64,000 nt of DNA. Origin: Frigoribacterium sp. VKM Ac-2836 (GTDB lineage: Bacteria > Actinomycetota > Actinomycetes > Actinomycetales > Microbacteriaceae). A program made the position numbers and the translations under genes. The notes under the pieces were generated by a model, which was given only the letters and a program-made list of their open reading frames with translations, was not told the origin of the DNA and did not search any database. This document shows, in pieces, positions 19,688 through 57,236 of the stretch. Numbering within the stretch: the first letter of the stretch is position 1; every line of letters starts with the position of its first letter. Location of the stretch: positions 310,001 through 374,000 of the forward strand of contig NZ_JABRPK010000002.1 in NCBI RefSeq assembly GCF_013248995.1. The letters run 5' to 3'.

Positions 19688-19698
19688 CCCCGCACGTC

Positions 19699-19758: not shown

Positions 19759-19831
19759 CTCGGGGCCGGCCCCGGCCCGAGGAGGCGCGGGTGCCGTTGC
19801 CGAGGGCGGCTCACCGACATAGGGTGGCCCG

Positions 19832-34155: not shown

Positions 34156-34991
34156 CCGGGACGCACGCCGCGCCTCCTGCCGACGGGGTCGCGGCGGTCG
34201 CCGCACCCTCGATCATCGTGATCGTGGCGATGAGCGACGAGGCGGAGCCCTTCGTCTCGCGCGCCACCCGCGTCGACGAGCCGATCGCGGTCGGCGGGTC
34301 GCTGCAGCGCGTCGTCGAGATCGACGGCGTCGAGCTGTTGCTCGTGCAGAGCGGCATCGGCTTCGTCAACGCGGCCGGGGCGGCCACCTCGGCCATCGTG
34401 CGGTCGGGTTCGCTCGAAGGCGTCGTGCCGACCGTGATCAGCGCGGGCACCGCCGCCGGCATGGGCGAAGGCATCGAGATCGGCGACGTCGTCGCGGGTG
34501 CCGAGTACGTCAACCTCGACGCGGACGCACGCGTCTTCGGCTACCGGCTGGGGCAGGTGCCCGGCATGCCGGCCAGCTTCCACGCCGACGAGCGGTTGGT
34601 GGAGGCCGCGGTCGCGTACGACACCTCGGTCGCGTCGGCTGCGCGTGCCGGTGACGCGTCGAGTGCGGGTGACCCGTCGGGCGCATCTCGTGGCGGCTGG
34701 GCCGTGCGGCCCGGGCTGATCGCCTCGAGCGACGCCTTCATGACCGCCGAGCGCGTGATCGGTGTGCGCAGCGCGTTCGCCGACGTGGTCGACGTCGACG
34801 CCGTCGACATGGAGTCGATGGCGATCGCCCAGACCTGCCACGTCCACCACGTGCCGTTCGTCTCGGTGCGGGGAATCAGCGATCTCGCCGGGCCGGACGC
34901 CCACGACGTGCACGACGAGAACCTCGCCCTCACGGCGGGGCGGTCCGCCGACGTGACGATGCACCTCGTCCGCGCGATCGTCGCGGGCTGA
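34152..34991 (+). CDS. mtnN: 5'-methylthioadenosine/S-adenosylhomocysteine nucleosidase
   Basis: 279 residues, somewhat longer than usual owing to a 20-residue Ala/Pro start (carrying a dispersed repeat copy at 34169) and an Ala/Ser loop near residues 160-180. The PNP-fold core shows [14 protein letters not shown], the substrate loop [13 protein letters not shown] with the ribose-binding Met-Glu-Ser, and [11 protein letters not shown] with the catalytic Asp. It makes S-ribosylhomocysteine, the LuxS substrate. Coupled to luxS by ATGA. Confidence 0.88.
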
Positions 34992-35024
34992 GCTCCGGCG
35001 GGGGCCGCACCGACGACACGAGCC

Positions 35025-35068
35025 CGAAACACCCGTGCCGTCGCGACGAAACGCGTGTTTCGTACGCT
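35025..35068 (+). promoter_or_regulatory. Purine-regulon operator and -10 box before the NCS2 permease
   Basis: ACGAAACGCGTGTTTCGT (35046-35063) is a dyad whose core CGAAACGCGTGTTTCG matches the 16-bp motif found at 43069, 43099 and 46047. A half-matching copy CGAAACACCCGTGCCG lies at 35025-35040. TACGCT (35063-35068) fits a -10 box, so the dyad would block or position polymerase. Confidence 0.5.
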
Positions 35069-35107
35069 TGCGGCCACCACCCGGCATCCCCACGATCAGG
35101 AGTCCCG

Positions 35108-36562
35108 ATGTCACAGTCCCCGCCCGAGTCACCCGAGCCTCAGACGTCCACGGTCGCGACCTCGGGGTCTCCCGAGGGGACCCACCCCGTCGACCGTGTC
35201 CCACCCCTGCGGCGCCTCTTCCCGCTCGGCCTGCAGCACGTGCTCGCGATGTACGCCGGGGCGGTCGCCGTGCCGCTCATCGTCGGAGGGGCACTCGTCG
35301 GCATGGGGCAGCTCGAACCCGGTGACATCGCGTACCTGATCAGTGCCGACCTGTTCGTGGCGGGCATCGCGACGATCGTGCAGTCGGTCGGGTTCTGGCG
35401 TTTCGGGGTGCGGCTGCCGTTGATGCAGGGCTGCACCTTCGCCGCGGTCGGGCCGATGATCGTGATCGGCGGCGAGTACGGCATCACGGCGATCTACGGC
35501 TCGGTCATCGCGAGCGGCGTCTTCATGATGTTGCTGGCGCCGTTCTTCTCGAAGCTCGTGCGGTTCTTCCCGCCGATAGTCACCGGCACGGTGATCCTGA
35601 TCATCGGCGTCTCCCTGATGGACGTCGCCGCCGGGTGGGTCGGAGGAGGCGCGGGTTCCGAGGACTTCGGACGCCCGCTCGACGTCGCCTTCGCGGCCGG
35701 CACCCTGCTGCTGATCGTCCTGATCGAGCGGTTCGCGCCTCCTTCGCTCCGTCGCCTGTCGATTCTGCTGGGGCTGGTGGTGGGGACCCTCGTGGCCTGG
35801 CCGTTCGGGCTGACCGACTGGAGCGGCGTGGGCGAGAGCGCCTGGTTCGGTCTCGCGTTGCCGTTCCACTTCGGGCTGCCGACCTTCCCCGTGAGCGCGA
35901 TCGTGTCGATGTGCATCGTCGGCCTGGTGATCATGACGGAGACCACCGGCGACATCATCGCGGTGGGCGAGATCGTCGACCGACCGGTGACGCCGCGCCG
36001 GCTGGCGGACGGGCTGCGGGCCGACGGCCTGTCCACGGTCATCGGCGGCGTCTTCAACACGTTCCCGTACACGGCGTTCGCGCAGAACGTCGGCCTCGTC
36101 AGCATCACGGGGGTGAAGTCGCGGTACGTGGCGACGCTGGCGGGCGGCATCCTCGTCGTGCTGGGCCTGGTGCCCGCGCTGGGAGCCGTCGTCGAGGGTG
36201 TGCCGGTGGCGGTGCTCGGCGGGGCCGGGGTCGCGTTGTTCGGCATGGTCGCGGCGAGCGGCATCCGGACGCTGTCGAAGGTCCGCTTCACGAACAGCAA
36301 CATCCTGATCGTGGCGATCGCGCTGGGCGTCAGCCTGCTGCCGACGGTCAGCCCCGAGATCTACGCGCAATTCCCGACCTGGTTCACCATCGTGTTCGAC
36401 TCGGGCATCAGCGCCGGGGCGATCGTCGCCGTGCTGCTGAACCTGCTGCTCAACTCGCCGCGGGTGCAGGCGCGGGACGAGGGTGCGGACCGCGACGTGT
36501 CGGCCCACGACGCCGTGCGGGGTCCGGCCGCACCGGCCGGGTTGACCGACCGCCAGGCCTGA
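35108..36562 (+). CDS. NCS2-family purine permease (xanthine/urate)
   Basis: 484 residues, about 14 helices. Family marks include GLQHVLAMYAGAVAVPLI, the sodium/proton-site region MTETTGDIIAVGEIV and FPYTAFAQNVGLVSITGVKSR. These fit the xanthine/uric acid branch (PucJ/PbuX/UacT) rather than uracil carriers. It would bring purines into the cell for the degradation enzymes encoded downstream. The leader holds a candidate operator shared with the uricase and pucG promoters. A dispersed repeat copy (35642) encodes GGGAGS in an external loop. Confidence 0.9.
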   Translation: MSQSPPESPEPQTSTVATSGSPEGTHPVDRVPPLRRLFPLGLQHVLAMYAGAVAVPLIVGGALVGMGQLEPGDIAYLISADLFVAGIATIVQSVGFWRFGVRLPLMQGCTFAAVGPMIVIGGEYGITAIYGSVIASGVFMMLLAPFFSKLVRFFPPIVTGTVILIIGVSLMDVAAGWVGGGAGSEDFGRPLDVAFAAGTLLLIVLIERFAPPSLRRLSILLGLVVGTLVAWPFGLTDWSGVGESAWFGLALPFHFGLPTFPVSAIVSMCIVGLVIMTETTGDIIAVGEIVDRPVTPRRLADGLRADGLSTVIGGVFNTFPYTAFAQNVGLVSITGVKSRYVATLAGGILVVLGLVPALGAVVEGVPVAVLGGAGVALFGMVAASGIRTLSKVRFTNSNILIVAIALGVSLLPTVSPEIYAQFPTWFTIVFDSGISAGAIVAVLLNLLLNSPRVQARDEGADRDVSAHDAVRGPAAPAGLTDRQA

Positions 36563-36611
36563 GCCGGGGCCCGGCCCCGGCCCCGGCCCCGGCCCCCGCC
36601 CCGGGGCCTGC

Positions 36612-36677
36612 GTCGCACCACGAACTGAACGTCGCACCGCGCGAATTCGCGGTGCGACGTTCAGTTCATGGTGCGAC
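36612..36677. repeat. GTCGCACC-family palindrome, copy 3
   Basis: Arms of 29 bp (36612-36640 and 36649-36677) pair with one mismatch around GCGAATTC; GTCGCACC occurs twice in the left arm and its complement twice in the right. It lies 50 bp behind the permease stop, between convergent genes, next to a GGCCCC tandem stretch (36568-36600). It suits a bidirectional terminator. Confidence 0.8.
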
Positions 36678-36754
36678 TCGTGATCCGGTACGTACCGGAT
36701 CAGGCTTGGGGAGAGGGGCCCAGCACGGCTCGTCCCGGCTCGGCCCGGCCCGGC

Positions 36755-39526
36755 TCAGCTGCCGCCGGCGAGGCGCCAGAGGCGGTCGCGTGACATGGGC
36801 AGCTCGTAGGGCCGCACCCCGAGGGCGTCGCGGATCGCGTTCGCCAGGGCCGGGGCCACCGGGTTGTAGGGCGCCTCGCTCATCGACTTGGCCCCGAGCG
36901 GGCCGAGGTCGTCGTGGGTGGTCGCGAAGTGCACCTCCGTCTGCGGCACGTCGCCGAACTTGGGCATCCGGTAGTTGCGGAACGCCGTCGTCAGCACGCG
37001 ACCCTCGCCGTCGAGCATCATCTCTTCGTAGAGCGCCGTGCCGATCGCCTGGGCCGTGCCCCCCTCCACCTGTCCACGGAGCTGCTCGGGGTTCAGAACG
37101 ACCCCGGCGTCCGCAGCCTGCACCGAGCGCAGCAGCCGCACCTCACCGCTCGACCGGTCGACCGCGACCTCGAAGCCGTGCACGTTGAACGCCACCGAGC
37201 GCGGGGTGCCGTCGTGGGCGCCGTCGGCGGTGAGCGGACCGTCCGCCAGCAGCCGCTCGCCGGAGACCAGCACGGTCGCGTCGGCACCCGGACCGACCCG
37301 CACCACGACTCCGCCCGCGACCACCTCGGGGGCGGTGCCGGTGTCGACGGCGTGACCCGCGCCTCCTGCGATCGCCAGGGCACGGTCGACCATCGCCGCA
37401 CGCAGCTTGTGGGCGGCGGCGAGCAGGGCCTTGCCCGCGACGACGACGCCCGCCGAGCCGTAGGCGCCCGTGTCGTAGCGGGCCACGTCGGTGTCCGACT
37501 GCCGGACGACGACCCGGTCGGGCGTCGTGCCGAGCGCCGACGCGACGAGCTGGGTGTGCACCGTCGTGGTGCCGTTGCCGAACTCGGCGGTGCCGACGCC
37601 GACGTCGTAGCGGCCGTCGGGCAGCAACTCGATCGACGTGTCGGCGAAGTGACCCCGTGGCGGGATCGTCGCGATCATCGCCAGGGCCATGCCGCGTCCG
37701 GTCGACCAGGTCGGGCCGACGGGGGCAGGAGGCGCACCCGCGGGGGCAGGAGACCCCAGCGCCTGCTCGACCAGGTCGAGGCACTGGTCCAGCCCGTAGC
37801 TGCCGATCAGCAGGTCGCTCTCTTCGTCGGGGTCGGTGACCACCATCGGATCGCCGGGGACGACGACGTTGCGCCGGCGCAGCTCGAACGGGTCGATGCC
37901 GAGCTCGCGGGCGAGCTCGTCCATCGCCGACTCGACGGCGAACACGACCTGGCCGAGCCCGTAGCCGCGGAACGCCCCCGAGGGCAGGTTGTTCGTGTAG
38001 ACCGACTCGGCGTCGACGCGCTTGTTCGGGCAGCGGTAGACGCTGGTCGACTCGTGCACCGAGTGGTACATCACGCCGACGCCATGGTTGCCGTAGGCGC
38101 CGGTGTCCATCAGCTGGTCGACGTGCAACGCGGTCAGCACGCCGTCGCTCGTGGCCCCGACCCGCACGCGGACGCGCATCGGGTGACGGGTCGGGGCGAT
38201 CGTGAACTCGTCCTCGCGGGTGAACTCGTACTGCACGGGTCGACCGGTACGCAGCACGGCCAGGGCCACGAGGTCTTCGGTGATCAGCTCTTGCTTGCCG
38301 CCGAAGCCGCCGCCGACACGGGCGGCGACGACGCGAACCTGCTCCTGTGGCAGGTCGAAGACGTGGGCCAGCTCGTCTCGCACGAGGAACGGCACCTGGC
38401 TCGCCGTGCGGATCACGAGGCGTCCGTCGTCGTCGAGCCAGCCGCGGGAGGCATGTGTCTCGAGCGCTCCGTGCGAGACGCGCTGCGTCCGCCACGTGCC
38501 CTCGACCACCGCGTCGGCCGCCGCCAGGCCCGCCTCGACGTCTCCGGTCTCGTCGTGCATCGCGGCCACGGTGTTGCGCTCGGGGTACGCGATGCGCGAC
38601 ACCTCGCTGGTCTTCTCCCCGTGCAGCAGAGGGGCGCCCGGCGTCCGCGCCGCCTCGGGGTCGAACACGGCGGGGAGCGGTTCGTACCCGACGACGATCG
38701 CGGCCAGGGCGTTCGTCGCCGTGCGGACGTCGTCGGCGACCACCGCGGCGACCCGCTGCCCGCGGAACCGCAGCACGGGGTCGAGCACGAGACCGTCGTC
38801 GGGATCGTCCTCGCGGTCCTCGTGACGACCGGTCGAGAACAGCGTCGTGGGGGAGTCGCGGTGCGTCAGCACCAGGTGCACGCCAGGCATCGCCTCGGCG
38901 GCGCTCGTGTCGATCGAGGTGATGCGGGCGTGGGCGTGCGGGCTGCCGAGCACGGCGAGGTGCAGCAGTTTCGTCGTGCTCCGGAAGTCGAGCGTGAAGG
39001 GTTCCGCGCCGGACACGACGCGCATCGCCGCGGGGGCCTTGACCGACCGACCGGCCGCCTCGCCGTCGGCCGGGGCCACCGTGTTCGTGACACCACAGAT
39101 CGCGTCGCCGATCGCCCGGTAGCCCGTGCACCGGCAGAGGTTGCCCTTCAGGAGGCGCGGCAGATCGCTCGCGTCGGCCTCGGTGAACGTCGAGGCCGTC
39201 ACCACCATGCCGGCCGTGCAGAAGCCGCACTGGAATCCGGCCGCGTCGGCGAAGGCCTGCTGCACGGGGTGGGGATGCTCGGGGGTGCCGAGGCCGGCCG
39301 CCGTCGTCACGGCCCGACCCTCGAGTCGGTGCGCCGGGTAGATGCACGAGTGCACGGGCTCGCCGTCGACCAGCACCGAGCAGGCGCCGCAGTCGCCCGC
39401 GTCGCAGCCCTTCTTGACCGAGTGCACACCGTTCTCACGCAGTACCGTCCGCAACACCTGACCGGGTGCGACCTCGGCGTCGAGGGGCAGGCCGTCGACC
39501 TCGAACGTGACGTGTCTCGGGGTCAT
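36755..39526 (-). CDS. Xanthine dehydrogenase, fused iron-sulfur and molybdopterin subunits
   Basis: 923 residues. Residues 1-150 are the two-cluster iron-sulfur subunit: Cys41, Cys46, Cys49, Cys61 for the plant-type cluster and Cys100, Cys103, Cys131, Cys133 for the second. From about 175 the molybdenum-cofactor subunit follows (RVGGGFGGKQE, GAFRGYGLGQ, and the active-site Glu region LGAKSMSEAPYNP near the end). Small and large subunits are usually separate genes. It oxidises hypoxanthine and xanthine to urate with the FAD subunit encoded just upstream (ATGA overlap). Ala/Pro linkers at about 600 and 790 hold repeat copies. Confidence 0.88.
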   Translation of the reverse strand: MTPRHVTFEVDGLPLDAEVAPGQVLRTVLRENGVHSVKKGCDAGDCGACSVLVDGEPVHSCIYPAHRLEGRAVTTAAGLGTPEHPHPVQQAFADAAGFQCGFCTAGMVVTASTFTEADASDLPRLLKGNLCRCTGYRAIGDAICGVTNTVAPADGEAAGRSVKAPAAMRVVSGAEPFTLDFRSTTKLLHLAVLGSPHAHARITSIDTSAAEAMPGVHLVLTHRDSPTTLFSTGRHEDREDDPDDGLVLDPVLRFRGQRVAAVVADDVRTATNALAAIVVGYEPLPAVFDPEAARTPGAPLLHGEKTSEVSRIAYPERNTVAAMHDETGDVEAGLAAADAVVEGTWRTQRVSHGALETHASRGWLDDDGRLVIRTASQVPFLVRDELAHVFDLPQEQVRVVAARVGGGFGGKQELITEDLVALAVLRTGRPVQYEFTREDEFTIAPTRHPMRVRVRVGATSDGVLTALHVDQLMDTGAYGNHGVGVMYHSVHESTSVYRCPNKRVDAESVYTNNLPSGAFRGYGLGQVVFAVESAMDELARELGIDPFELRRRNVVVPGDPMVVTDPDEESDLLIGSYGLDQCLDLVEQALGSPAPAGAPPAPVGPTWSTGRGMALAMIATIPPRGHFADTSIELLPDGRYDVGVGTAEFGNGTTTVHTQLVASALGTTPDRVVVRQSDTDVARYDTGAYGSAGVVVAGKALLAAAHKLRAAMVDRALAIAGGAGHAVDTGTAPEVVAGGVVVRVGPGADATVLVSGERLLADGPLTADGAHDGTPRSVAFNVHGFEVAVDRSSGEVRLLRSVQAADAGVVLNPEQLRGQVEGGTAQAIGTALYEEMMLDGEGRVLTTAFRNYRMPKFGDVPQTEVHFATTHDDLGPLGAKSMSEAPYNPVAPALANAIRDALGVRPYELPMSRDRLWRLAGGS

Positions 39527-40491
39527 GGCGCGCCTCCCGGGCTCGTGGGGGTGGTCGGGGACGGGGTGCCGGTGAGGGCACGGGCAGCGGGGCTTCGCGG
39601 GTCGTGGGTCGGCTCGCCGTGTGGTCGCGTGCGTTCCGCCCCGGTGCCCGCGGTGGCGGACGGTGCGGGCGCGGGCCGGCCGAGTTCGACGCGCAACTCG
39701 TCGGCGAAGCGCGCGCTCATGGCGCGACGCCAGTCGGGGGCACCGTGCGGGTCGGAGTACCAACAGTCGACGCCGGCCACCGCCTCGGCCAGGGCCCGTT
39801 CGCCGGGCAACTCGTCGAAGCGCAGCTGGACGGGACGGGTCGTCCCCGCCGTGATCGTGACGACGAACTCGCCGTCGAGGCCGAGGCGGGCCGTGACCAG
39901 CGTCCCCGAGCGGCCCAGGGGGCTCAACGAGATGCGTCGGAACCCGGTGCGCGATCGCAGCGAGTCGAGTGGCACCTCGAGCGTGCGCAGCACCTCGCCC
40001 GGCTCGAGTGCGTTCTGCACGACCCCCGTGACGAAGGTCGCGACGGGCAAGCGCCGCTCACCGCCGTCGGTGGTCCAGACGACGGCCGTGGCGTCGAGGG
40101 TGGCCATCAGCGACGTCATGGCGCCCGCCGGCAAGCCGAGGGCGACGTTGCCGCCGACCGTCGCGACGTTCCAGATCTTGAACGAGGCCAGCAACGAGTT
40201 CGCGCACTGGTCGATCAACGGGTGGGCGGCCCAGTCGTCGTCGGCGGGCAGCCTCAACAACTCGGCGATGGTGCAGGTGGCGGCGATGCCGACGACGTCA
40301 CCGCTAACGGCGTCGGTGCCGCGCTCGATCGGCGTCCACCCGAGCGAGGTCAGGTCGACCAGGCCGGTCAGCCCGGGCTGCCGTTCGGAGAACAGCCACG
40401 TGCCTCCGCCGAGGGGGCGTTCGCCGGGCGCGAAGACGACCTCGTCCCGTCGTGACGGGGTACGGATCTCGCGAACGGTGGTCAGGTCCAT
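39523..40491 (-). CDS. Xanthine dehydrogenase FAD-binding subunit
   Basis: 322 residues, CoxM/XdhB type. FAD-binding motifs PLGGGTWLF and the later TVGGNVALGLPAGAM are intact; the C-terminal 55 residues are a disordered Pro/Thr/Arg tail. It passes electrons from the molybdenum/iron-sulfur chain to NAD+. Its stop overlaps the start of the large-subunit gene. The ATG at 40491 avoids four extra residues at 40503. CGAAACCCCGGTCG on the minus strand just upstream resembles a degenerate copy of the purine-regulon motif. Confidence 0.88.
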   Translation of the reverse strand: MDLTTVREIRTPSRRDEVVFAPGERPLGGGTWLFSERQPGLTGLVDLTSLGWTPIERGTDAVSGDVVGIAATCTIAELLRLPADDDWAAHPLIDQCANSLLASFKIWNVATVGGNVALGLPAGAMTSLMATLDATAVVWTTDGGERRLPVATFVTGVVQNALEPGEVLRTLEVPLDSLRSRTGFRRISLSPLGRSGTLVTARLGLDGEFVVTITAGTTRPVQLRFDELPGERALAEAVAGVDCWYSDPHGAPDWRRAMSARFADELRVELGRPAPAPSATAGTGAERTRPHGEPTHDPRSPAARALTGTPSPTTPTSPGGAP

Positions 40492-40719
40492 GGGACGACC
40501 CACTCTGCACGACCGGGGTTTCGAGCATGTGTCGGAACGCTCGGCGTCGAACGACCGTCGCGTCGTCGAACCACGCCCGGGGGTGGTTCGGTGACACGGA
40601 CGTGGTGCGACCCGCCACCCACCATGACGGGCCAGGGGGCCGTCTCACCCGACGCCCGGGAGGCGCCGGTCGGCCAGCCGCACCCGTCGCCTCGGGGCAC
40701 CGTGGCTAGGGTGTGCGTC

Positions 40720-41283
40720 ATGATCGAGCTCGACGAGGCCACCCTGCGTTCGCACCTGCTGACCGCCCTGAGTGTCGAGCGATGGGCCGACGGTGTCGCC
40801 GCGCAGGCGCCGTTCGCCGACGCCGACGCACTGATCACGGTCGCGGCCGCAGCCGCCACGCCGCTCAGCGCCGCCGAGATCGACGAGGCCATGTCGCACC
40901 ACCCGCGCATCGGCGAGAAGCCGGCCGGCGACGGCGCCGCGCAGGAGTTCAGTCGACGTGAGCAAGGGTCCGCGGTCGACGCCGACGACGAGGCCCTCGC
41001 ACAGCTGCTGGCCGAGGGCAACGCCGCGTACGAGCAGCGCTTCGGCCGGGTGTTCTTGATCCGTGCCGCCGGTCGGAGTCGGGCCGAGATCGTTGGTGAG
41101 CTGCAGCGGCGGCTCAGGCTCGACGACGACACCGAGCTGAGGATCGTGGGGGGCGAGCTGCGCGACATCGCGCTGCTGAGGCTCCAGGCGACCTTCGCGG
41201 ACGCCGGAGACTCCGCCGACGCCGCCGATTCCGCCGACGCCGCCCGGGCGACGTCCACCGACCGCGACGAGGTCGGAGCATGA
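40720..41283 (+). CDS. uraD: OHCU decarboxylase
   Basis: 187 residues. The family signature MSHHPRIGEKPAG carries the catalytic His, followed by AYEQRFGRVFLIRAAGRS and the terminal RLRLDDDTE... RDIALLRL helix. It converts 2-oxo-4-hydroxy-4-carboxy-5-ureidoimidazoline to S-allantoin, the third step after uricase. The last 20 residues are an Ala/Asp/Ser repeat (DSADAADSADAA). TAGGGT (40707-40712) 7 nt before the ATG suggests leaderless translation. ATGA overlap with the next gene. Confidence 0.92.
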   Translation: MIELDEATLRSHLLTALSVERWADGVAAQAPFADADALITVAAAAATPLSAAEIDEAMSHHPRIGEKPAGDGAAQEFSRREQGSAVDADDEALAQLLAEGNAAYEQRFGRVFLIRAAGRSRAEIVGELQRRLRLDDDTELRIVGGELRDIALLRLQATFADAGDSADAADSADAARATSTDRDEVGA

Positions 41284-41606
41284 GCCACGTCACGACGCAC
41301 GTCCTCGACGCCGCACTGGGCCGCCCGGCGGCCGACGTTCCCGTCGCGCTCCACGACGACCATGGAGTCGAACTCGGCACCGGCGTGACGAACGCCGACG
41401 GGCGCGTGCCCGAACTCGGCCCGGACGCCCTGCCCGCCGGCGATTACCGACTCGTCTTCGAGACCGCCGCCTACTTCTCGGCCGCGCAGCGAGACACGTT
41501 CTACCCGCGGGTGACGATCGACTTCACCCTCGCCGACGAGTCGAGTCACTACCACGTGCCCGTTTTGCTCAGCCCGTTCGCGTACTCGACCTACCGCGGC
41601 AGCTGA
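41280..41606 (+). CDS. uraH: 5-hydroxyisourate hydrolase (transthyretin-like)
   Basis: 108 residues, the full family length. It has the conserved N-terminal VTTHVLDAALGRPAADV with the catalytic His, and the diagnostic C-terminal YRGS tetrapeptide. It opens 5-hydroxyisourate, the unstable uricase product, to OHCU. Translationally coupled to uraD. It converges with the guanine deaminase gene, 18 bp away. Confidence 0.95.
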   Translation: MSHVTTHVLDAALGRPAADVPVALHDDHGVELGTGVTNADGRVPELGPDALPAGDYRLVFETAAYFSAAQRDTFYPRVTIDFTLADESSHYHVPVLLSPFAYSTYRGS

Positions 41607-41624
41607 CCCCCCTCGCACGCCGGC

Positions 41625-42155
41625 TCAGTAGTCGGTGCGGTGGTCGTGGGTCGCCCACGCCTCGAACGGCGCCGGCGCGTTCGCCGGGCGCACCTCGTCG
41701 ACGGGGAGGTCCCAGGTCGACCGGTCGCGCGCGAACAGCTCGTAGAACTCGAGGTCGTCGAAGCCACCTCGTGCGGCGTCGTGGCGGTCGGCCGCGTAGA
41801 CGACCCGGTCGACGCGCGCCCAGAGCGAGGCCGACAGGCACAGCGGGCACGGCTCGCACGAGGTGTACAGCGTCGTGCCGGCGAGCGAGAAGTCTCCGAC
41901 CACCTGGCAGGCCGCACGGATCGCCGTGACCTCGGCGTGCGCGGTGGGGTCGAGGTTGGCCGTGACCCGGTTCTGCCCCTCGGCCACGAGCTCGTCCCCG
42001 CGGACGATGACCGCGCCGAACGGCCCGCCTCCGTTCGCGACGTTCTCGACGGCCAACTCGATCGTTCGTGCCAGCCAGCGGGCGTCGGCGGCGTCGGTCA
42101 CGGTGTCTCCTCGGGGTGCGGCAGGCGTGGGATCGGTCGACTCGGCGACGCTCAT
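41625..42155 (-). CDS. guaD: Guanine deaminase (CDA-fold nucleoside deaminase)
   Basis: 176 residues. Zinc ligands lie in TAHAEVTAIRAA and SCEPCPLCLSA (His-Ala-Glu and PCxxC), as in the cytidine-deaminase-fold guanine deaminases. The C-terminal DDLEFYELFARDRSTW and HDHRTDY end match bacterial GuaD (YkoA/GuaD type). It converts guanine to xanthine, feeding xanthine dehydrogenase. Its start overlaps the uricase stop, so the two are made from one transcript. Confidence 0.88.
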   Translation of the reverse strand: MSVAESTDPTPAAPRGDTVTDAADARWLARTIELAVENVANGGGPFGAVIVRGDELVAEGQNRVTANLDPTAHAEVTAIRAACQVVGDFSLAGTTLYTSCEPCPLCLSASLWARVDRVVYAADRHDAARGGFDDLEFYELFARDRSTWDLPVDEVRPANAPAPFEAWATHDHRTDY

Positions 42156-43045
42156 GCGAGACCCGCCGAGGCGCGCCAGGCGTCGTGGGCCGGCGGCGCG
42201 TCGTCACGCAGCACGGTGGCTTCGATCAGACCATACGGCCGGTCGGCGGCCCAGAACACCTCGCCCGGGTTCTCGAGACCGAAGGGTGCCAGGTCGTAGG
42301 CGAAGTGGTGCCTGTTGGGCGCCTTGAGGCGTACCTCGACGATCGACGGGATCGCCTCGAGGACTGCCGTGCCCATGTGCCACAGGGTCTGTTGCAGCGC
42401 GAGCGACTGCAGGGTGGCGAACTCGCGGACCATCAGGCGCTTCACGTCGGCGTACGTGGCCTCCCAGTCGACGTCCGTCGTGCCGAAGCGCCACTTCGCG
42501 TCCAACGACGTCGCCATGACCCGGTCGTGCGTCTCGGGCAGGGTCGTGAACTCGTCGGTCAGGAATCCGGCGAACTCTGACCCGGTCGACTTGAGCAGGA
42601 CCAGGTCTTTCAGGCCGCCCACGACGTACTCGCCGGTGTCGTCCACCGTGACGGCGGCGGTGCGTACCTCTTGCCCCGAGCGCAGCCAGGTGTGGTCGTG
42701 CTCCGCGCCGTCGACGACGGCCCGCTGCCAGTCGTACTGCTCGATCTCGACGCGGGCACCGGTGACCGGCTCGACGTCGTGCACGAAGTGGCGGGCGAGT
42801 TCGAGCCCGAAGCGCTCGACGGCCTCGACGCCCTTCGACTTCGCGAAGGCGAACGCGGTGTTCTTCTGGGTGTCCGTCGGCAGGACGGCGCTCTGGTCGC
42901 CCCGCAGATACGCCGCGTCGAACGGACCGCGCAACGCCGTCGTGACGTTGACGTCGCGGATCTCGTGTCGGGGCCCGTCGCGGTAGAAGCGCACGAGTCG
43001 CGACTCCGCTTTGCCGTACTGGTTGTCGCCGAGGATGATCGCCAT
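42152..43045 (-). CDS. pucL: Urate oxidase (uricase)
   Basis: 297 residues, cofactor-free two-repeat T-fold enzyme. It starts IILGDNQYGKAESRLVRFYRDG, with the catalytic Lys-Thr pair in GKAE and VLPTDTQKNTAFAFAK, and NRHHFAYDLAPFGLENPGEVF near the end. It oxidises urate to 5-hydroxyisourate and peroxide. The divergent promoter region to the formamidase gene holds two tandem 16-bp motifs 30 bp apart. Confidence 0.95.
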   Translation of the reverse strand: MAIILGDNQYGKAESRLVRFYRDGPRHEIRDVNVTTALRGPFDAAYLRGDQSAVLPTDTQKNTAFAFAKSKGVEAVERFGLELARHFVHDVEPVTGARVEIEQYDWQRAVVDGAEHDHTWLRSGQEVRTAAVTVDDTGEYVVGGLKDLVLLKSTGSEFAGFLTDEFTTLPETHDRVMATSLDAKWRFGTTDVDWEATYADVKRLMVREFATLQSLALQQTLWHMGTAVLEAIPSIVEVRLKAPNRHHFAYDLAPFGLENPGEVFWAADRPYGLIEATVLRDDAPPAHDAWRASAGLA

Positions 43046-43068
43046 GCGGCGATGATCACACAGCCGTG

Positions 43069-43114
43069 TGAACGACTTGTTTCACGATCGGCGCATTGTG
43101 AACAACTCGTTTCA
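43069..43114. promoter_or_regulatory. Twin purine-regulon operators in the pucL-fmdA divergent promoter
   Basis: TGAACGACTTGTTTCA (43069-43084) and TGAACAACTCGTTTCA (43099-43114) are two near-identical pseudo-palindromes starting 30 bp apart, about three helical turns. Consensus TGAACRACTYGTTTCA. They lie between uricase (minus) and the formamidase-like gene (plus), and related copies precede the NCS2 permease and pucG. Confidence 0.65.
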
Positions 43115-43158
43115 GAAGGCTTATCGGGACGAGGCGTCCACTCGCTACTGTGCTGGGC

Positions 43159-44304
43159 ATGGCGATCTCCGACGCGACTCCGGCACCCCACGCGGGCCCC
43201 GTTCCCGCGACCCCGATCCTGCAACCGTTGGCTCGGGGCGATCGAGACGAGGGGGTCGTCTACCTGCCCGCGACCCCTGCCACGACGCTGTGGGGGCGCC
43301 TGCCCTGCGCTGCCGACGAGCCCGTGCTCACGATCGACCCGGGCACCGCCGTCCTCATCGACACCCTCAGCCACGAGGGCGTGCTCGACGACCAAGGGCG
43401 TGACCCCCTGGCTTTCTTCGCCCGCCACGGGGTACCCGCCGAGCACGTGCTCGACGACGCGGTCGCGCTGGCCGCGGCCGATGACGACCAGCACGGTCGC
43501 GACCCGGGTGCCGACGGTCCGCACGTCGTGACGGGGCCCATCGCGATCCGCGGAGCGCAGCCCGGCGACGTCGTCACGATGACCCTGCTCGACGCGACAC
43601 CGCGGGTGCCCTACGGCGTCATCTCGAACCGGCACGGCCGCGGCGCCCTGGCCGGTGAGTTCCCGCTCGAGGCCGGCCCGGTCAGCGTCTTCGCGGCGGT
43701 GGACCACGAGCCCGACGGCTCGCTCGTCGGCACCTTGCCGCTCGTGCCGGGTGCCGACCACACCGTGCGATTCCCCCTGCATCCCTTTCTCGGCATCATG
43801 GGCGTCGCCGTGGCGGGCGACGAGCGACCGCATTCGGTGCCTCCCGGGACGCACGGGGGCAACATCGACATCGCCCTGCTGACCGAGGGCGCTTCGCTGC
43901 ACCTGCCCGTCCAGGTGCCCGGGGCCCTGGCGTACGTCGGCGATCCCCACTTCGCCCAGGGCGACGGCGAGGTCGCGCTCACGGCGATGGAGGCCAGCCT
44001 GCGGGTCACCGTCCGGTTCGACCTGGTGCCTCGGGCCGAGGCCGTGGCGCTGTTCGGCGAGATCGCCGGGCCGCTGGCCGAGACGGCCGAACTGCTCGTG
44101 CCCACCGGTCTCGACGAAGACCTCGACGAGGCGGTCCGCGCCTGCGTCCGGGCGGCGATCGATCTGATCGAGGCCCGCTACGGCATGGACCGCAGCCTCG
44201 CCTACGCCTATCTCTCGGCCGCGACCGACTTCGACATCTCGCAGGTCGTCGACCTGGTCAAGGGCGTCCACGCCCGCATCCGCAAGGCGGACTTCGGTGG
44301 CTGA
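43159..44304 (+). CDS. Acetamidase/formamidase-family protein
   Basis: 381 residues. FmdA_AmdA fold with conserved HPFLGIMGVAVAGDERPHSVPPGTHGGNIDI near residue 215. Such enzymes hydrolyse formamide or short amides to ammonia. In this cluster it may act on a late product such as oxamate, or on formamide; this is inference. TACTGT (43146-43151) ends 7 nt before the ATG at 43159, so a leaderless start there is preferred to the GTG at 43150. Its end overlaps the fused amidase gene by 8 bp. Confidence 0.85.
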   Translation: MAISDATPAPHAGPVPATPILQPLARGDRDEGVVYLPATPATTLWGRLPCAADEPVLTIDPGTAVLIDTLSHEGVLDDQGRDPLAFFARHGVPAEHVLDDAVALAAADDDQHGRDPGADGPHVVTGPIAIRGAQPGDVVTMTLLDATPRVPYGVISNRHGRGALAGEFPLEAGPVSVFAAVDHEPDGSLVGTLPLVPGADHTVRFPLHPFLGIMGVAVAGDERPHSVPPGTHGGNIDIALLTEGASLHLPVQVPGALAYVGDPHFAQGDGEVALTAMEASLRVTVRFDLVPRAEAVALFGEIAGPLAETAELLVPTGLDEDLDEAVRACVRAAIDLIEARYGMDRSLAYAYLSAATDFDISQVVDLVKGVHARIRKADFGG

Positions 44305-45985
44305 CGCGATGCGTGCCGACGTGCCCGGTCCCGAGGAGGCGCGGGTCGGCTCGGGCACCGTCCCCACGACCGTCGACGGCGACCTGCCCGACGGCCTGAT
44401 CGCCGCGTTCGACGCCTACGAGCAGGCACTCGCGGCCGATGACCAGGTCGCGCTCGCGGCGTCCTTCGAGCCGACCGCCACCGTGATGCGCGCCGACGCC
44501 GGTGGTCTGCTGGTCGGGCACGACGCCATCACGGCCTTCCGGGGCCGGCGCGGGTCGGGGCCGGTTCGTCGTGTGGTCGAGTGCCACGTGCGGGTCGTCG
44601 ACGCCGACGCCGCGCTGATCGTGTCCGTGAACGCTCCGGCCTCCGGCGGGCGCGGGGTCGTCACGCAGCTCTGGCGCCGCGAGCCGCGGACGGGGTCGGG
44701 TCGTGGTCGCCCCTGGCGCATCGCGTCGGCGCAGGTGCAGGCGCCGCCTCCCGCGATCGACCGGCGGGTCTGGCGGGTCGTGGGCGAGCCGCTGGTCTCG
44801 GGGCGTCGCGACGACGGGGTGACCGGTGCCGCGCCTCCTGCGGGCTCTCGGGCCCTCGTCGGCGAGACCGTCGCCGTGAAAGACCTGTTCGCCGTCGCGG
44901 GCCACGCGATCGGTGCCGGGGTGCCTGCCCGTCTCGCCGGTGCGGCCCCCGAGCCCCGGCACGCGGCCGCGGTCCAGCACCTGCTCGACGCCGGGGCCGA
45001 CCTGCGCGGCATCGCGCAGACCGACGAGTTCGCCTACAGCATCGCCGGACGCAACTCCGCCTACGGCACCCCGCCCAACCCGGCCGCGCCGGGGGCGATC
45101 TCGGGTGGTTCGACCAGCGGCCCGGCGGCGGCCGTGGCCCTCGGGCAAGCGAGCATCGGCCTCGGGACCGACACGGGCGGGTCGCTCCGGGTGCCGGGGT
45201 CGTACCAGGGGCTCTGGGGCATCCGTACCACGCACGGCGCCGTCGACCGTGCCGGGCTGCTGCCCCTCGCGCCGAGCTTCGACACGGTCGGCTGGGTGAC
45301 ACGTGACGTCGACACCCTCCGCCGGTCGGCCGCGTCGTCGCTGCGGTCGGCCGACCAGGTGTCGGTCGAGCCGTCGTACGTGGTCGACCCGGGGCTGCTC
45401 TCGTCGGTCACGCCCGGTGTACGAGCCGAGTTCGGGCGGGCCCTCGACGAGGCGACCGCGGCAGGGCGCATCCCGCGTCCCGAGCCGGTCGTCCTGGGCG
45501 ACGTCGCGCACCTGTTCGAGCTGTTCCGTGTGCTGCAGGCGTTCGAGGCCTGGCAATCCGACGGGGACTGGATCACCGCGCATCCCGGCGAACTCGCCGC
45601 GGACGTCTCGGCTCGTTTCGCGTTCGGCGCGACGGTCTCGCCCCGGCAGGCCGAGGAGGCGCGGGTCGCCCTCGCCCACGAACGTCGCCGCCTCGAGGCC
45701 CTCCTCCAGGGGCGTGTGCTGCTGCTGCCGAGTGCGTCGTCGGCCGCCCCGTCGCTCAGTGCCACGGCGGCCGAGGTGGATGCCGTCCGCTCGGCCACGC
45801 TCGGTCTGACCTGCATCGCCGGCGTGCTCGGGGCTCCTGCCGTCTCGGCGCCCGTCCTCGAGGTGCCCGTCGCCGCCGGGCGGCGCGCACCCGTCGGGCT
45901 GTGCCTCGTGGGGCCACGCGGCGCGGACCTCTCCTTGGTCGAGCTCGCGGCGACTTGGGCGACCTGGGCGACCTGGGCGACCTGA
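44297..45985 (+). CDS. Fused HpxZ/AtzH-like and amidase (HpxY/AtzE-like) protein, probable oxalurate amidohydrolase
   Basis: 562 residues. Residues 28-150 are a DUF3225 (AtzH/HpxZ) NTF2-like domain. From about 185 an amidase-signature enzyme follows with Lys195 (AVKDLF), the GGSTSGP loop at 270-276 and nucleophile Ser296 in TDTGGS. In Klebsiella hpxXYZ the two parts are separate and serve oxalurate breakdown. PucG, encoded next, makes oxalurate, so this fusion likely hydrolyses it. No HpxX/AtzG gene is seen. Repeat copies encode EEARV at residues 13-17 and again near 455. The C-terminus is a peculiar (ATW)n tail. Confidence 0.78.
   Translation: MADAMRADVPGPEEARVGSGTVPTTVDGDLPDGLIAAFDAYEQALAADDQVALAASFEPTATVMRADAGGLLVGHDAITAFRGRRGSGPVRRVVECHVRVVDADAALIVSVNAPASGGRGVVTQLWRREPRTGSGRGRPWRIASAQVQAPPPAIDRRVWRVVGEPLVSGRRDDGVTGAAPPAGSRALVGETVAVKDLFAVAGHAIGAGVPARLAGAAPEPRHAAAVQHLLDAGADLRGIAQTDEFAYSIAGRNSAYGTPPNPAAPGAISGGSTSGPAAAVALGQASIGLGTDTGGSLRVPGSYQGLWGIRTTHGAVDRAGLLPLAPSFDTVGWVTRDVDTLRRSAASSLRSADQVSVEPSYVVDPGLLSSVTPGVRAEFGRALDEATAAGRIPRPEPVVLGDVAHLFELFRVLQAFEAWQSDGDWITAHPGELAADVSARFAFGATVSPRQAEEARVALAHERRRLEALLQGRVLLLPSASSAAPSLSATAAEVDAVRSATLGLTCIAGVLGAPAVSAPVLEVPVAAGRRAPVGLCLVGPRGADLSLVELAATWATWATWAT
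44333..44350 (+). repeat. Dispersed repeat copy inside a coding region, GAGGAGGCGCGGGTCGGC
   Basis: Copy of the window-wide motif read in frame as EEARVG near the N-terminus of the fused amidase. A second in-frame copy lies at 45653. Confidence 0.7.
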
Positions 45986-46024
45986 TGCTCGCCTCGGACG
46001 GCGACCTGATGCTCGCCTCGGACG
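45977..46024. repeat. 24-bp tandem duplication across the amidase stop codon
   Basis: The 24 bases at 45977-46000 recur exactly at 46001-46024. The first copy contains the amidase stop codon. Just upstream, a 9-bp unit (GCGACCTGG) is repeated about four times and encodes the ATWATWATWAT tail. Replication slippage has clearly been active here. Confidence 0.85.
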
Positions 46025-46046
46025 GCCGCCGACGCGTTCACCTGCA

Positions 46047-46068
46047 TGAAACACGGGTTGCGTAGGGT
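46047..46068 (+). promoter_or_regulatory. Purine-regulon operator and -10 box before pucG
   Basis: TGAAACACGGGTTGCG (46047-46062) matches the 16-bp motif of the pucL and permease promoters in its left half and partly in its right. It abuts TAGGGT (46063-46068), a -10 box that ends 7 nt before the GTG start of pucG, consistent with a leaderless mRNA. Confidence 0.5.
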
Positions 46069-46075
46069 GGGCCGG

Positions 46076-47323
46076 GTGAAACGAGTCTTCCAGCCGATCG
46101 ACCCGCCCGCCCGCCTGCTGATGGGCCCCGGGCCGATCAACGCCGACCCCCGGGTCCTCCGCGCGATGTCGGCTCAGCTCGTGGGGCAGTACGACCCCGC
46201 CATGACGGCCTACATGGACGAGACGCAGGCGCTGTACCGCGAGGTGTTCCAGACCGCCAACGAGCAGACCCTGCTCGTCGACGGCACCTCGCGGGCCGGC
46301 ATCGAGGCCTCGCTCGTGTCCCTGATCGAGCCGGGCGACAAGGTGCTCGTGCCCGTCTTCGGTCGATTCGGGCACCTGCTGCGCGAGATCGCCGAGCGTT
46401 GTGGGGCAGAGGTCCACGTCATCGAGGTGCCGTGGGGGCAGGTGTTCGCCCTCGAGACCATCGTCGAGGCGATCGAGCGCGTCCAGCCGAAACTGCTCGC
46501 GGTCGTGCACGGTGACACCTCGACGACCGTCGCCCAGCCCCTCGACGGGCTCGGAGAAGCCTGCGCCCGCCACGGCGTGCTGTTCTACACCGACGTCACG
46601 GCATCGATCGTCGGCAACACCTTCCGCACCGACGAGCTCGGGCTGGACGCCGTCAGCGCCGGCCTGCAGAAGTGCCTCGGCGGCCCCTCGGGGTCGTCGC
46701 CCGTCACCTTCAGCGAGCGAGCCGTGGACGTCATCCGGGCCCGCACGTCCATCGAAGCCGGAATCCGTGGTGACGGCGACACGACGAGCGCCCGCCGCAT
46801 CGCCTCGAACTACTTCGACCTCGCGATGATCTTCGACTACTGGGGGCCGCAACGCCTCAACCACCACACCGAGGCGACCACGATGCTCTGGGGCGCCCGT
46901 GAATGCGCCCGCCTGGTGGTCGACGAGGGCGTCGACGCCGTGGTCGCCCGACACGAGCTGCACGGTCGCGCCATGCTCGCGGGCGTGCTGGGGCTCGGCC
47001 TCGAGACCTTCGGTGACCTCGCTCACAAGATGAACAACGTCGTCGCCGTGGTGATCCCCGACGGTGTCGACGGCGACCGGGTGCGCGGCGCCCTGCTCAC
47101 CGACTTCGGCATCGAGATCGGCACCTCGTTCGGCCCCCTGCACGGCAAGGTCTGGCGCATCGGCACGATGGGCTACAACGCGCGTCGCGACACCGTGCTC
47201 ACGACCCTCGCCGCGCTCGAGGCCGTGCTCCGGCGCGAGGGTGCGCCGATCACGAGTGGCGGCGGGGTCGGCGCCGCCTACGACGTCTACCTCGACGCCG
47301 ACCGAGCAGGAGGCGCGGCGTGA
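46076..47323 (+). CDS. pucG: (S)-ureidoglycine-glyoxylate aminotransferase
   Basis: 415 residues, fold-type I PLP enzyme of the alanine-glyoxylate aminotransferase group. Lys199 in GLQKCLGGPSG binds PLP, with Asp173 in FYTDVTAS. MGPGPINADPRVLRAM is the typical start. RLNHHTEATTMLWG matches the active-site region of PucG. It transfers the ureidoglycine amino group to glyoxylate, giving glycine and oxalurate. The GTG at 46076 was chosen because a -10 box immediately precedes it. GTGA overlap with allC. Confidence 0.88.
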   Translation: MKRVFQPIDPPARLLMGPGPINADPRVLRAMSAQLVGQYDPAMTAYMDETQALYREVFQTANEQTLLVDGTSRAGIEASLVSLIEPGDKVLVPVFGRFGHLLREIAERCGAEVHVIEVPWGQVFALETIVEAIERVQPKLLAVVHGDTSTTVAQPLDGLGEACARHGVLFYTDVTASIVGNTFRTDELGLDAVSAGLQKCLGGPSGSSPVTFSERAVDVIRARTSIEAGIRGDGDTTSARRIASNYFDLAMIFDYWGPQRLNHHTEATTMLWGARECARLVVDEGVDAVVARHELHGRAMLAGVLGLGLETFGDLAHKMNNVVAVVIPDGVDGDRVRGALLTDFGIEIGTSFGPLHGKVWRIGTMGYNARRDTVLTTLAALEAVLRREGAPITSGGGVGAAYDVYLDADRAGGAA

Positions 47324-48576
47324 GCGACGAGGCCCGTCTCGTCCTCGAGCGCTGCGATGCCCTGGCCGCCGTCTCGAGCAGTCCGACCGGCATCGAGCGC
47401 GTGTACCTCTCGCCCGAGCACGCTCGCGTCAACGCGATGGCCGGCGAGTGGATGACACAGGCCGGCATGACGACGTGGCAGGACGCCGCCGGCAACCAGC
47501 GCGGTCGCTACGAGGGCACCGAGCCGGGCCTGCCCGCCCTGCTGCTCGGCTCGCACCTCGACACCGTGCCCGACGCCGGACGCTACGACGGCATCCTCGG
47601 CGTGCTCCTCGGCATGGCCCTGGTCGAACGTCTCGAGACCGCGGGCAGTCGTCTGCCCTTCGCGATCGAGGTGCTCGCCTTCGGTGACGAAGAGGGCACC
47701 CGCTTCGGTACCGCGCTGCTCGGTTCGCGGGCGGTCGCCGGCACCTGGCAGCCCGAGTGGTGGTCCCTGGTCGACGCCACGGGCACGACGTTGCGCGACG
47801 CGTTCCGAGCCTTCGGCCTCGACCCCGACCGGGTGACCGACGCCGCGTACGACCCCGCCGACGTCGTGGGCTACCTCGAGACCCACATCGAGCAGGGCCC
47901 CTACCTCGAAGAGGCCGACCGGGCCCTCGCCGTGGTCTCGTCGATCGCCGGCGCGCGGCGCTTCGACCTGTCCCTGACCGGGGTCGCCGGCCACGCGGGC
48001 GGCGTGCCGTTCCACCGGCGCCACGATGCGCTCGCCGGGGCCAGCGAGATCGTCCTGGCGGTCGAACGCCTGGCGCGAGAAGCCGGCTGCGTCGCCACGG
48101 TCGGCCGGCTGCAGGCTTTCCCCGGCGGGGTGAACGTGATTCCCGGGTTCGTCGAGTTCAGCCTCGACCTCCGCGCCGAGCACGACGACCGACGTGACGA
48201 GGTCTGGGCCGACATCCAGGCCGTCGCCGCCGAGGTCGGAGGGCGTCGCGGCCTCACCTTCTCGGTGGACGAGACCCACCGTGCGCCGGCCGTCGTCGCC
48301 TCACCGCGCCTCCGGGGATTCGTCCGCGACGGCATCGCCGCCACGGGAGACGTCGACCCGATGGTCCTGTTCTCGAAGGCCGGGCACGACGCCATGGCCG
48401 TCGCCGAGCTGACGGAGTGGGCCATGGTGTTCGTCCGCTGCGGCAACGGGGGCATCAGCCACCACCCCGACGAGACCGTCACGATGGCCGACGTGGCCGT
48501 CGCACTCGATGCCTTCGAGGCCACCGTGCAGGCGATCGCGGCGGCGCACCCGGCCGTGGCGCAGGCCTCCGCGTGA
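47320..48576 (+). CDS. allC: Allantoate amidohydrolase
   Basis: 418 residues, M20 metallopeptidase family. Metal ligands: His in LLGSHLDTVPDAGRYDG, Asp in the same stretch, Glu pair in AFGDEEGTRFG, and a late His in GNGGISHHPDE. THIEQGPYLEE and GVAGHAGGVPFHRRHDA are signature blocks of the allantoate/ureidoglycolate/carbamoyl-amino-acid amidohydrolases. It turns allantoate into ureidoglycine, CO2 and ammonia, the PucG substrate. It could alternatively be an N-carbamoyl amino acid hydrolase, but context decides. GTG start, coupled on both sides. Confidence 0.88.
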   Translation: MSDEARLVLERCDALAAVSSSPTGIERVYLSPEHARVNAMAGEWMTQAGMTTWQDAAGNQRGRYEGTEPGLPALLLGSHLDTVPDAGRYDGILGVLLGMALVERLETAGSRLPFAIEVLAFGDEEGTRFGTALLGSRAVAGTWQPEWWSLVDATGTTLRDAFRAFGLDPDRVTDAAYDPADVVGYLETHIEQGPYLEEADRALAVVSSIAGARRFDLSLTGVAGHAGGVPFHRRHDALAGASEIVLAVERLAREAGCVATVGRLQAFPGGVNVIPGFVEFSLDLRAEHDDRRDEVWADIQAVAAEVGGRRGLTFSVDETHRAPAVVASPRLRGFVRDGIAATGDVDPMVLFSKAGHDAMAVAELTEWAMVFVRCGNGGISHHPDETVTMADVAVALDAFEATVQAIAAAHPAVAQASA

Positions 48577-49493
48577 GCGGGCTCCGCATCGACGACACGC
48601 TCGGGGACGCTGCCGACGGCGCCAAGCCGGCGAAGGACGCAGGAGGCGCGGGCCCGGTCGAAGGGGCGGGCATCCGCGACCGCATCGATTCGGGCTACGG
48701 CCGCCTCTCGCCACGAGAACAACGAGCCGCCGACTTCATCCTCGACCACCTGGACGATCTCGCCGTCTACACCGCCACCGAGATCGCCGAGCGGAGCGGC
48801 GTCTCGAAAGCCACGGTGTCGCGGTTGTTCCGACGGCTCGGCTTCACCGACGCGCAAGAGGTGCGCGACCAGGCGCGGGCGTCGCGGAGCCGTGGCGTAC
48901 CGGTCGGGCCGACCCGCGCCTCCGGCGGCCTCGCCGAGCACGCCGAGGCCGAACGACGAAACCTCGACCTGATGCTGTCGGGGCTGGCCGACGGCCGGCT
49001 CGAGCGGGCCGCCACGGTGGTCGCCGGTGCCGAGCGGGTCGTCGTGGCGGGATTCCGCAACAGCTACCCGGTGGCGCTCCACCTGCGGCAGCAGCTGGTC
49101 CAGGCACGGGACGACGTGCGCGTCGCGCCGCAGCCGGGCCAGTCCATCGGCGAAGAGCTGGTCGGGCTCGGGGCACGGGACGTCGTCGTCCTGGTGGGGT
49201 TCCGCCGTCGGCCGGCCGGGTTCGCCGGCGTCCTGTCGGCGCTGGCCGCCCGCGGTGTGCCCGTGGTGCTGATCGCCGACCCGTCGCTGCGCGGGGTCGA
49301 GGTGACGGTACGACTCGATTGTCCGGTCGAGACCCCGGCACCCTTCGACAGCTACGCCGGCGCGATGAGCCTGGTCGCGCTGCTGGCGGGTGCCGTGCTG
49401 ACCGAGACCGTCCGGGCCGGACGACCAGGGGCAGGCCGCAGCCGTGTCGCCGAGGTCACCGAGCTGTACGCCGAGCTGAGCGAACTCGAATAG
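48573..49493 (+). CDS. RpiR-family regulator (HTH plus SIS domain), candidate purine-cluster regulator
   Basis: 306 residues starting at GTG in a GTGA overlap with allC. An RpiR-type helix-turn-helix lies at about 45-105 (LSPREQRAADFILDHLDDLAVY, SGVSKATVSRLFRRLGF). A SIS sugar-phosphate-like domain follows (VVVAGFRNSYPVALHLRQQL). It is embedded in the purine operon and is the only dedicated regulator there, so it may bind the TGAAC-N6-TTTCA motifs. Its first 40 residues and the loop near 115 contain dispersed repeat copies (48639, 48918). Effector unknown. Confidence 0.82.
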   Translation: MSGLRIDDTLGDAADGAKPAKDAGGAGPVEGAGIRDRIDSGYGRLSPREQRAADFILDHLDDLAVYTATEIAERSGVSKATVSRLFRRLGFTDAQEVRDQARASRSRGVPVGPTRASGGLAEHAEAERRNLDLMLSGLADGRLERAATVVAGAERVVVAGFRNSYPVALHLRQQLVQARDDVRVAPQPGQSIGEELVGLGARDVVVLVGFRRRPAGFAGVLSALAARGVPVVLIADPSLRGVEVTVRLDCPVETPAPFDSYAGAMSLVALLAGAVLTETVRAGRPGAGRSRVAEVTELYAELSELE

Positions 49494-49517
49494 CACGCGA
49501 TCCGCGTCACGGCTCGC

Positions 49518-57170: not shown

Positions 57171-57236
57171 GTCGCACCACCTTCTGGACGTCGCACCACG
57201 AACCTTCGTGGTGCGACGTCCAGTTCGTGGTGCGAC
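57171..57236. repeat. GTCGCACC-family palindrome, copy 4
   Basis: Perfect outer arms GTCGCACCAC (57171-57180) and GTGGTGCGAC (57227-57236), and perfect 18-bp inner arms (57185-57202, 57205-57222) around a 2-nt loop. It lies between the convergent transglycosylase and lipoprotein genes, where it could terminate both. Confidence 0.8.

Follow-up and report, generated by a model that had tools for sequence, protein, structure and literature searches.

Which protein controls purine breakdown in Frigoribacterium sp. VKM Ac-2836, and through which sites on the DNA? A 64-kb stretch of this 3.27-Mb genome (NZ_JABRPK010000002.1, positions 310,001 to 374,000; hereafter the window, which comprises all 64,000 nucleotides analysed, numbered from 1) holds a purine-breakdown cluster in whose promoter regions similar 16-bp pseudo-palindromes recur. 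A model working from the letters alone (the sequence-only reading) had taken four of these for a new operator that joins the cluster into one regulon, and had named the RpiR-family protein encoded inside the cluster as the best candidate regulator. We consider it very probable that TGAAACA-NN-TGTTTCA sites are bound by this RpiR protein (48573–49493), and probable that through them it represses purine catabolism and its own operon.

The four 16-mers originally listed, at 35047, 43069, 43099 and 46047, are each present there exactly once. Counting matches to the consensus TGAAAC-N4-GTTTCA gives 9 window positions with at least 10 of 12 letters, against ~3.1 expected under a first-order Markov model; this is above chance only mildly, and the earlier grouping was therefore by itself suggestive, not decisive. 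The same reading had proposed a search for the motif elsewhere in the genome: the four-site pattern occurs at 19 places against 2 matches for its reversed control, 15 of the 19 lie outside the window, and a rough filter puts 13 of 22 further genome places within likely coding frames. Plain consensus counting, in window or genome, was accordingly too weak to serve as deciding evidence. We instead scored the window with an independent, symmetric matrix whose consensus is TGAAACA-NN-TGTTTCA; its training set comprised 34 loci (68 pucG-promoter sites), all in genera other than Frigoribacterium. Ranks 1 to 5 among all window positions go to 35047 (19.9 bits), 46077 (19.2), 43069 (17.5), 43099 (16.7) and 46047 (16.1), and the sixth-best position reaches 10.7 bits. 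The list of four was thus incomplete, a fifth site having been missed.

These five sites fall at three promoter regions. The top match, CGAAACGCGTGTTTCG at 35047–35062, lies immediately 5' of a candidate -10 box (TACGCT, 35063–35068, plus strand) of ncs2, the NCS2 permease gene (35108–36562, plus strand); a weaker companion site stands 22 bp upstream from it (35025–35040; 9.4 bits, rank 10 in the window). In the divergent region between the uricase gene (42152–43045, minus strand) and a formamidase/acetamidase-like gene (fmd; 43150–44304, plus strand), operator 1 (43069–43084), which would overlap the predicted -35 of uricase, is followed 30 bp on by operator 2 (43099–43114). At the promoter of the pucG-like aminotransferase gene (46076–47323, plus strand), operator 1 (46047–46062) lies immediately 5' of a candidate -10 box, TAGGGT (46063–46068, plus strand), which sits between both operators; operator 2, the fifth site, TGAAACGAGTCTTCCA at 46077–46092, begins 30 bp downstream of 46047 and overlaps the GTG start of pucG. 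It had been said that two sites abut -10 boxes, and TANNNT indeed directly follows the sites at 35047 and 46047. A strict sigma-70 scan reported no promoter within 34900–49700, and the candidate -10 boxes therefore rest on conservation. A weak copy that had been placed before the xanthine dehydrogenase genes (~40508–40523) scores -3.5 bits (rank 228) and is absent in 5 of 12 Frigoribacterium loci, being kept in just 7; we rejected this copy, and membership of these genes in the regulon is not supported.

Were the sites functional, they would be expected upstream of orthologous purine genes, and across the genus they are kept at uricase/fmd, pucG and ncs2. Uricase is encoded in 12 of 16 genus genomes, and footprints were read from the window and its 11 relatives. 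Two TGTGAAC-N5-GTTTCA sites stand exactly 30 bp apart in the uricase/formamidase gap of all 12 loci; as a strict pattern, this pair is confined to the genus (2 of 249 genomes of the family). The sequence TGAAAC-N4-GTTGCG followed by TANNNT precedes pucG in 11/11 loci that hold the gene, and in a twelfth genome (L139) as well. The ncs2 site and its TACGCT box recur in each of the seven loci whose fetched stretch includes ncs2, a gene that does not show in the stretches of the remaining five; in the six other than the window, the companion site reads YGAAACACGYGTGCCG. The second pucG site, conserved in the genus, keeps the Lys codon AAA and often the Arg codon CGA, although both are uncommon in the 25 presumed genes of the window (AAA, 13 of 161 Lys codons; CGA, 77 of 781 Arg codons). 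In G007 (L139 and L038) the cluster is split, with pucG-allC-rpiR ~20 kb from the uricase part, and operator pairs are kept in both.

We then compared the loci across the family. RpiR orthologs (E≤1e-40) are encoded in 47 of 249 family genomes, belonging to 21 of 85 genera, and loci were fetched for 40 of the 45 such genomes outside Frigoribacterium (all except G059, G104, G166, G188 and G204). All 40 contain pucG, the allantoate amidohydrolase gene allC, and rpiR; 39 share this gene order and direction, and L100 departs from it. With a pair defined by a summed matrix score of at least 19, paired sites occur at pucG in 34 of the 40 loci, whereas none of 1,890 mononucleotide-shuffled regions reaches that score. 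The site centres are 29 bp apart in 22 of the 34, 30 bp in 11 and 31 bp in one, so that a pair spans 45–47 bp in all, and in 32 of these 34 loci a TANNNT begins either immediately behind operator 1 or one base later. At a typical pucG promoter, site 1 ends where the -10 TANNNT starts and site 2 starts near the expected transcription start. By comparison of these genomes, then, the sites are conserved, paired and tied to the rpiR gene.

The presence of the sites tracks the presence of the regulator. A pucG gene (E≤1e-100) was found in 70 of the 249 genomes, 23 of which fall below the RpiR threshold, and all 23 were fetched. One of them, G206, carries the first ~86 RpiR residues at a contig end and has the pair; it was reclassified as RpiR-bearing and excluded from the tally, leaving 22 genomes with 23 pucG upstream regions (G136 has two). 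A pair occurs in only 1 of these 23 (G090, with degenerate sites), against 34/40 with RpiR (Fisher p ~1e-10, kinship ignored), and within-genus contrasts agree in g37, g68 and g84. Loosening the RpiR threshold to 1e-8 in the 22 genomes uncovered nothing above 109 bits; in that search orthologs score 380–415 bits and the cut-off piece in G206 98 bits. The uricase-less Frigoribacterium genomes G003, G012 and G013 have no RpiR match at E≤1e-8, and the fourth, G015, has only a distant match of 109 bits. These observations bear on the notion that the repeats owe their conservation to core-promoter or coding function, with no dedicated regulator. The sites do touch candidate -10 boxes, and one lies inside the pucG coding start. 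RpiR-less relatives, however, keep pucG but not the sites, which are missing from 22 of their 23 upstream regions. The palindromes moreover recur at three promoter regions of the window, and the second pucG site uses uncommon codons. We give this explanation next to no chance.

A whole-genome search gave the same association. The tandem pattern TGAAACNNNNGTTNCR-N13-15-NGAAAC-N8-C, run on all 249 genomes, yields 26 matches, one per genome, and its reversed form yields 1. Measured from where the pucG profile match begins, the 26 stand 0–101 bases away. RpiR is encoded in each of the 26 genomes, with 25 exceeding the threshold and G206 contributing its contig-end fragment. The pattern was written after 40 promoters had been seen, so its recall is not independent, whereas the absence of matches at other places does count as independent.

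Outside the family, scanning named genomes gave at least 80 loci, and the counts that follow hold among the matches listed. Of 58 loci in which pucG is present and sufficient upstream sequence was available, 52 have the pair at this gene; the six without it are two Cryobacterium loci, in which the pucG match starts late, and four Nesterenkonia loci. Sites occur at ncs2 in 4 of 6 Nesterenkonia loci. In 17 of the 18 Arthrobacter loci a pair, at a looser score, follows rpiR at a distance of at most ~400 bp, and pucG was not found in the fetched flanks; most Arthrobacter loci also carry TGAGACGGTTGTTTCA or a close sequence at the rpiR start. Two of the genes behind such pairs were tested, and they encode a cytosine/purine/allantoin permease (PF02133; L172) and a dicarboxylate symporter (L178). 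In two loci from Gammaproteobacteria, the genes behind rpiR encode binding proteins of amino-acid type, and the sites are weaker. The sites thus follow the regulator, not one target gene, and the RpiR subfamily looks to extend past purine genes. Similar sites were also noted near the RpiR relatives of L178 and L192, where no purine gene was recognised alongside, and of L173 and L214, beside amino-acid-type uptake genes.

Could a different protein family own these sites? They might be operators of an IclR-family regulator encoded elsewhere, RpiR being a bystander. The motif equals the group-2 IclR consensus, TGRAACAN1-2TGTTYCA, in PMC8222616, which also reports that IclR factors bind tandem sites, mostly 18–22 nt apart, with spacings of about three and four DNA turns over-represented too, less so; since tandem sites ~three turns apart are on record there, the 29–31 bp spacing is no argument against IclR. 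IclR-type helix-turn-helix matches occur in all 16 Frigoribacterium genomes. The only strong one (E<1e-11), however, is found in 8 of the 16, four with uricase and all four without, and is missing from the 8 other uricase genomes, a tracking that rests on this single match, weaker IclR-like matches not having been followed one by one. The sites persist beside rpiR without pucG in Arthrobacter and disappear with RpiR while pucG remains. The shared motif shape may have its explanation in the RpiR protein itself, whose helix-turn-helix borders on the IclR profile (HTH_IclR, 21.9 bits against a cut-off of 22, and 24.0 bits, over cut-off, in the genome search); no IclR effector domain is among its Pfam matches. 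We therefore regard an IclR-family owner as very unlikely. For the RpiR protein as candidate regulator, on the other hand, the comparisons agree with the sequence-only reading: the sites are present with an RpiR ortholog and nearly always missing without one. They likewise favour a single regulon, with the xanthine dehydrogenase genes excepted, since the sites are conserved at orthologous genes.

What kind of regulator is this protein? Its N-terminal portion matches the RpiR-type helix-turn-helix PF01418 (HTH_6) at 38.0 bits (cut-off, 28.3), and the SIS domain PF01380 follows at 20.7 bits, under the cut-off of 25. In an AlphaFold model (mean predicted local distance difference test score, pLDDT, 86.3) the first fold matches are full-length RccR and V. 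vulnificus NanR, and superposition on the SIS domain 3SHO gives TMt 0.79–0.80; by its fold, then, the protein has the C-terminal SIS domain of RpiR/MurR regulators. The phosphate-binding SIS loop S-x-S-G-x-S/T was not found in this protein, RccR SQSGRS aligning with GFRRRP, residues that lie between a strand (172–177) and a helix (183–194) of the model; GFRRR or a close sequence is present in most of 45 aligned sequences. Because the phosphate loop is replaced, a sugar-phosphate effector is unlikely, and we do not class this RpiR as a sugar-phosphate sensor; our guess is that an anionic ureide or urate is the likelier effector. As a tentative idea, which we rate as somewhat less than probable, the subfamily may use this arginine-rich loop to sense a product of purine breakdown that carries no phosphate, such as allantoate, ureidoglycine, ureidoglycolate or urate, while bridging two operators around the -10 box; the subfamily itself, its operator little changed, would have been reused near dicarboxylate or amino-acid uptake genes in Arthrobacter and Gammaproteobacteria.

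Together, these features suggest how control might work. RpiR would bind the 16-bp sites mostly as pairs 29–31 bp apart, and a tetramer would probably bridge a pair, each of its dimers on one site. In front of pucG-allC-rpiR the two sites would flank the -10 box on both sides and cover both polymerase contacts; at ncs2 the site would adjoin the -10 box, and at uricase one site would lie over the expected -35. As the sites lie over promoter elements, bound RpiR would block RNA polymerase, and purine catabolism and the rpiR operon would be kept low until a pathway effector releases the protein; binding, bridging and repression are our inferences.

The same sites could serve an RpiR that activates, or that activates at some promoters and represses at others. 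Activation by an RpiR protein, S. pneumoniae NanR, is reported in PMC12713135, and the formamidase pair appears to lie upstream of the likely -35. That gene likely starts at ATG 43159, perhaps leaderless behind a candidate -10, TACTGT, at 43147–43152, and the closer of the two sites has its centre ~52 bp ahead of this likely start, where activation fits as well as repression. At pucG, in contrast, 32 of the 34 family loci with the pair have one site adjoining TANNNT and the other following within 13–15 bp, so that polymerase would find little space, and the ncs2 site too adjoins a candidate -10. Activation, at all or some promoters, is unlikely, and repression by RpiR remains our preferred account.

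Besides the formamidase geometry, several observations weigh against that account. Six of the 40 RpiR loci lack a consensus pair (three in g32, two in g35, one in g70); their RpiRs are the least similar to that of the window (39–44% identical). In g32 and g35 a variant, GTAAC-N4-GTTCC, adjoins the -10, and the helix-turn-helix is changed (SGTSKATVSRLVRSLGF against SGVSKATVSRLFRRLGF), as if protein and site had changed together; the two genera are close to each other, and this may be one event. Four of 6 Nesterenkonia loci have a single, perfect-scoring palindrome at pucG and no pair, and Arthrobacter L188 and Kocuria L202 are without clear paired sites. G090 (L121), in which no RpiR ortholog was found, retains degenerate pucG sites, as if the regulator had been lost recently; its congener G203 has RpiR. 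The strict tandem pattern recovers only 25 of 47 RpiR genomes and misses 22, and many of these promoters had already been viewed when the spacing, the score cut-off and the tandem pattern were chosen. Finally, matrix sites in the other family loci were found almost only at pucG, so that the wider regulon (uricase, fmd, ncs2) is documented for Frigoribacterium and, for ncs2, also for Nesterenkonia. As a separate observation, the g32 loci L103, L104 and L105 each have a strong site (18–22 bits; positions 2924, 3203 and 2977) ~4 kb upstream of pucG, near a further gene.

The cluster itself comprises, by Pfam and profile matches, the NCS2 permease (pbuX-type, xanthine/urate-type; PF00860, and TIGR03173 over cut-off), a fused iron-sulfur/molybdopterin xanthine dehydrogenase subunit and its flavin adenine dinucleotide (FAD) subunit, 2-oxo-4-hydroxy-4-carboxy-5-ureidoimidazoline (OHCU) decarboxylase, 5-hydroxyisourate (HIU) hydrolase, a deaminase, uricase (PF01014), the formamidase-like protein (PF03069), an AtzH-amidase fusion, the aminotransferase (PF00266), which we take to be PucG from its context, allantoate amidohydrolase (allC-like; 47320–48576, plus strand; NF006775 over cut-off), the RpiR regulator (plus strand), whose orthologs adjoin pucG and allC, and allantoinase. 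As allC overlaps pucG by 4 bp, and rpiR overlaps allC by 4 bp if it starts at 48573 (its conserved portion runs from ~48669), we read pucG-allC-rpiR as one operon. No matrix match lies upstream of rpiR itself in Frigoribacterium, which fits this reading.

Several other features were noted. The AtzH-like domain and amidase are fused in a single frame at 44297–45985, within the cluster. A dispersed element with inverted 27-bp arms (GTCGCACCACGAACTGAACGTCGCACC) lies at 19696–19761, 36612–36677 and 57184–57236; it has 5 matches at no more than 3 mismatches (shuffles, mean 0.00) and is similar to a repetitive extragenic palindromic (REP) element or a terminator. In the same genome (C3), single operator-like matches upstream of other reading frames (L014 1501–1516 and L226 1501–1516) are possible further targets, and one pattern match (L225, ~1501–1526) overlaps TTTCACGTGAAAC, a putative chromosome-partition (parS) site by its resemblance to such sequences.

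With these results, a well-known regulator family acquires, for one of its little-studied branches, both a target on the DNA and a probable function; purine catabolism in the Frigoribacterium family, Arthrobacter and Nesterenkonia gains a regulator with its target sites and a logic that can be put to the test. In open-access full texts, which do not cover subscription papers, we found no paper on an RpiR regulator of purine catabolism; a paper on GssR, a clostridial RpiR protein, has a table that includes ureidoglycine aminohydrolase among many genes. The operator that had been called new has a motif shape already known, that of IclR group 2. The genome comparisons argue for a regulator-operator system that is new but of a familiar kind, and whose ligand pocket is a variant one.

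How does this system compare with those already described? IclR group-2 operators (KdgR type) share the motif and differ in belonging to another protein family and in their prevailing tandem spacing (18–22, with ~three turns also seen, against 29–31 here; PMC8222616). AllR of E. coli, the allantoin repressor, controls the same kind of pathway but is an IclR-family protein with the site KTTGGAAWAWTWTTCCAAC, according to the same paper. The nearest solved structures by sequence and fold are S. pneumoniae NanR, V. vulnificus NanR and P. aeruginosa RccR, which share the RpiR fold; they are ~16–21% identical to the window protein in fold alignments and have phosphorylated carbohydrates as reported effectors. 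The S. pneumoniae NanR site, TCTGAAAGTACTTTTAGA, likewise has a TGAAA half-site (PMC12713135). In layout the closest parallel is E. coli MurR, whose SIS structures are among the fold matches: as reported in PMC12713135, a MurR tetramer is proposed to bridge two adjacent sites that together occupy 47 bp across the -35/-10 region, against 45–47 bp here (a likeness in the arrangement of paired operators). MurR responds to a sugar phosphate in cell-wall recycling, whereas the window RpiR is associated with purine and ureide genes and has no phosphate loop. Sugar-phosphate effectors are reported for all four RpiR proteins compared in PMC12713135; unlike these, the RpiR proteins described here would have a ligand pocket not built for sugar phosphates.

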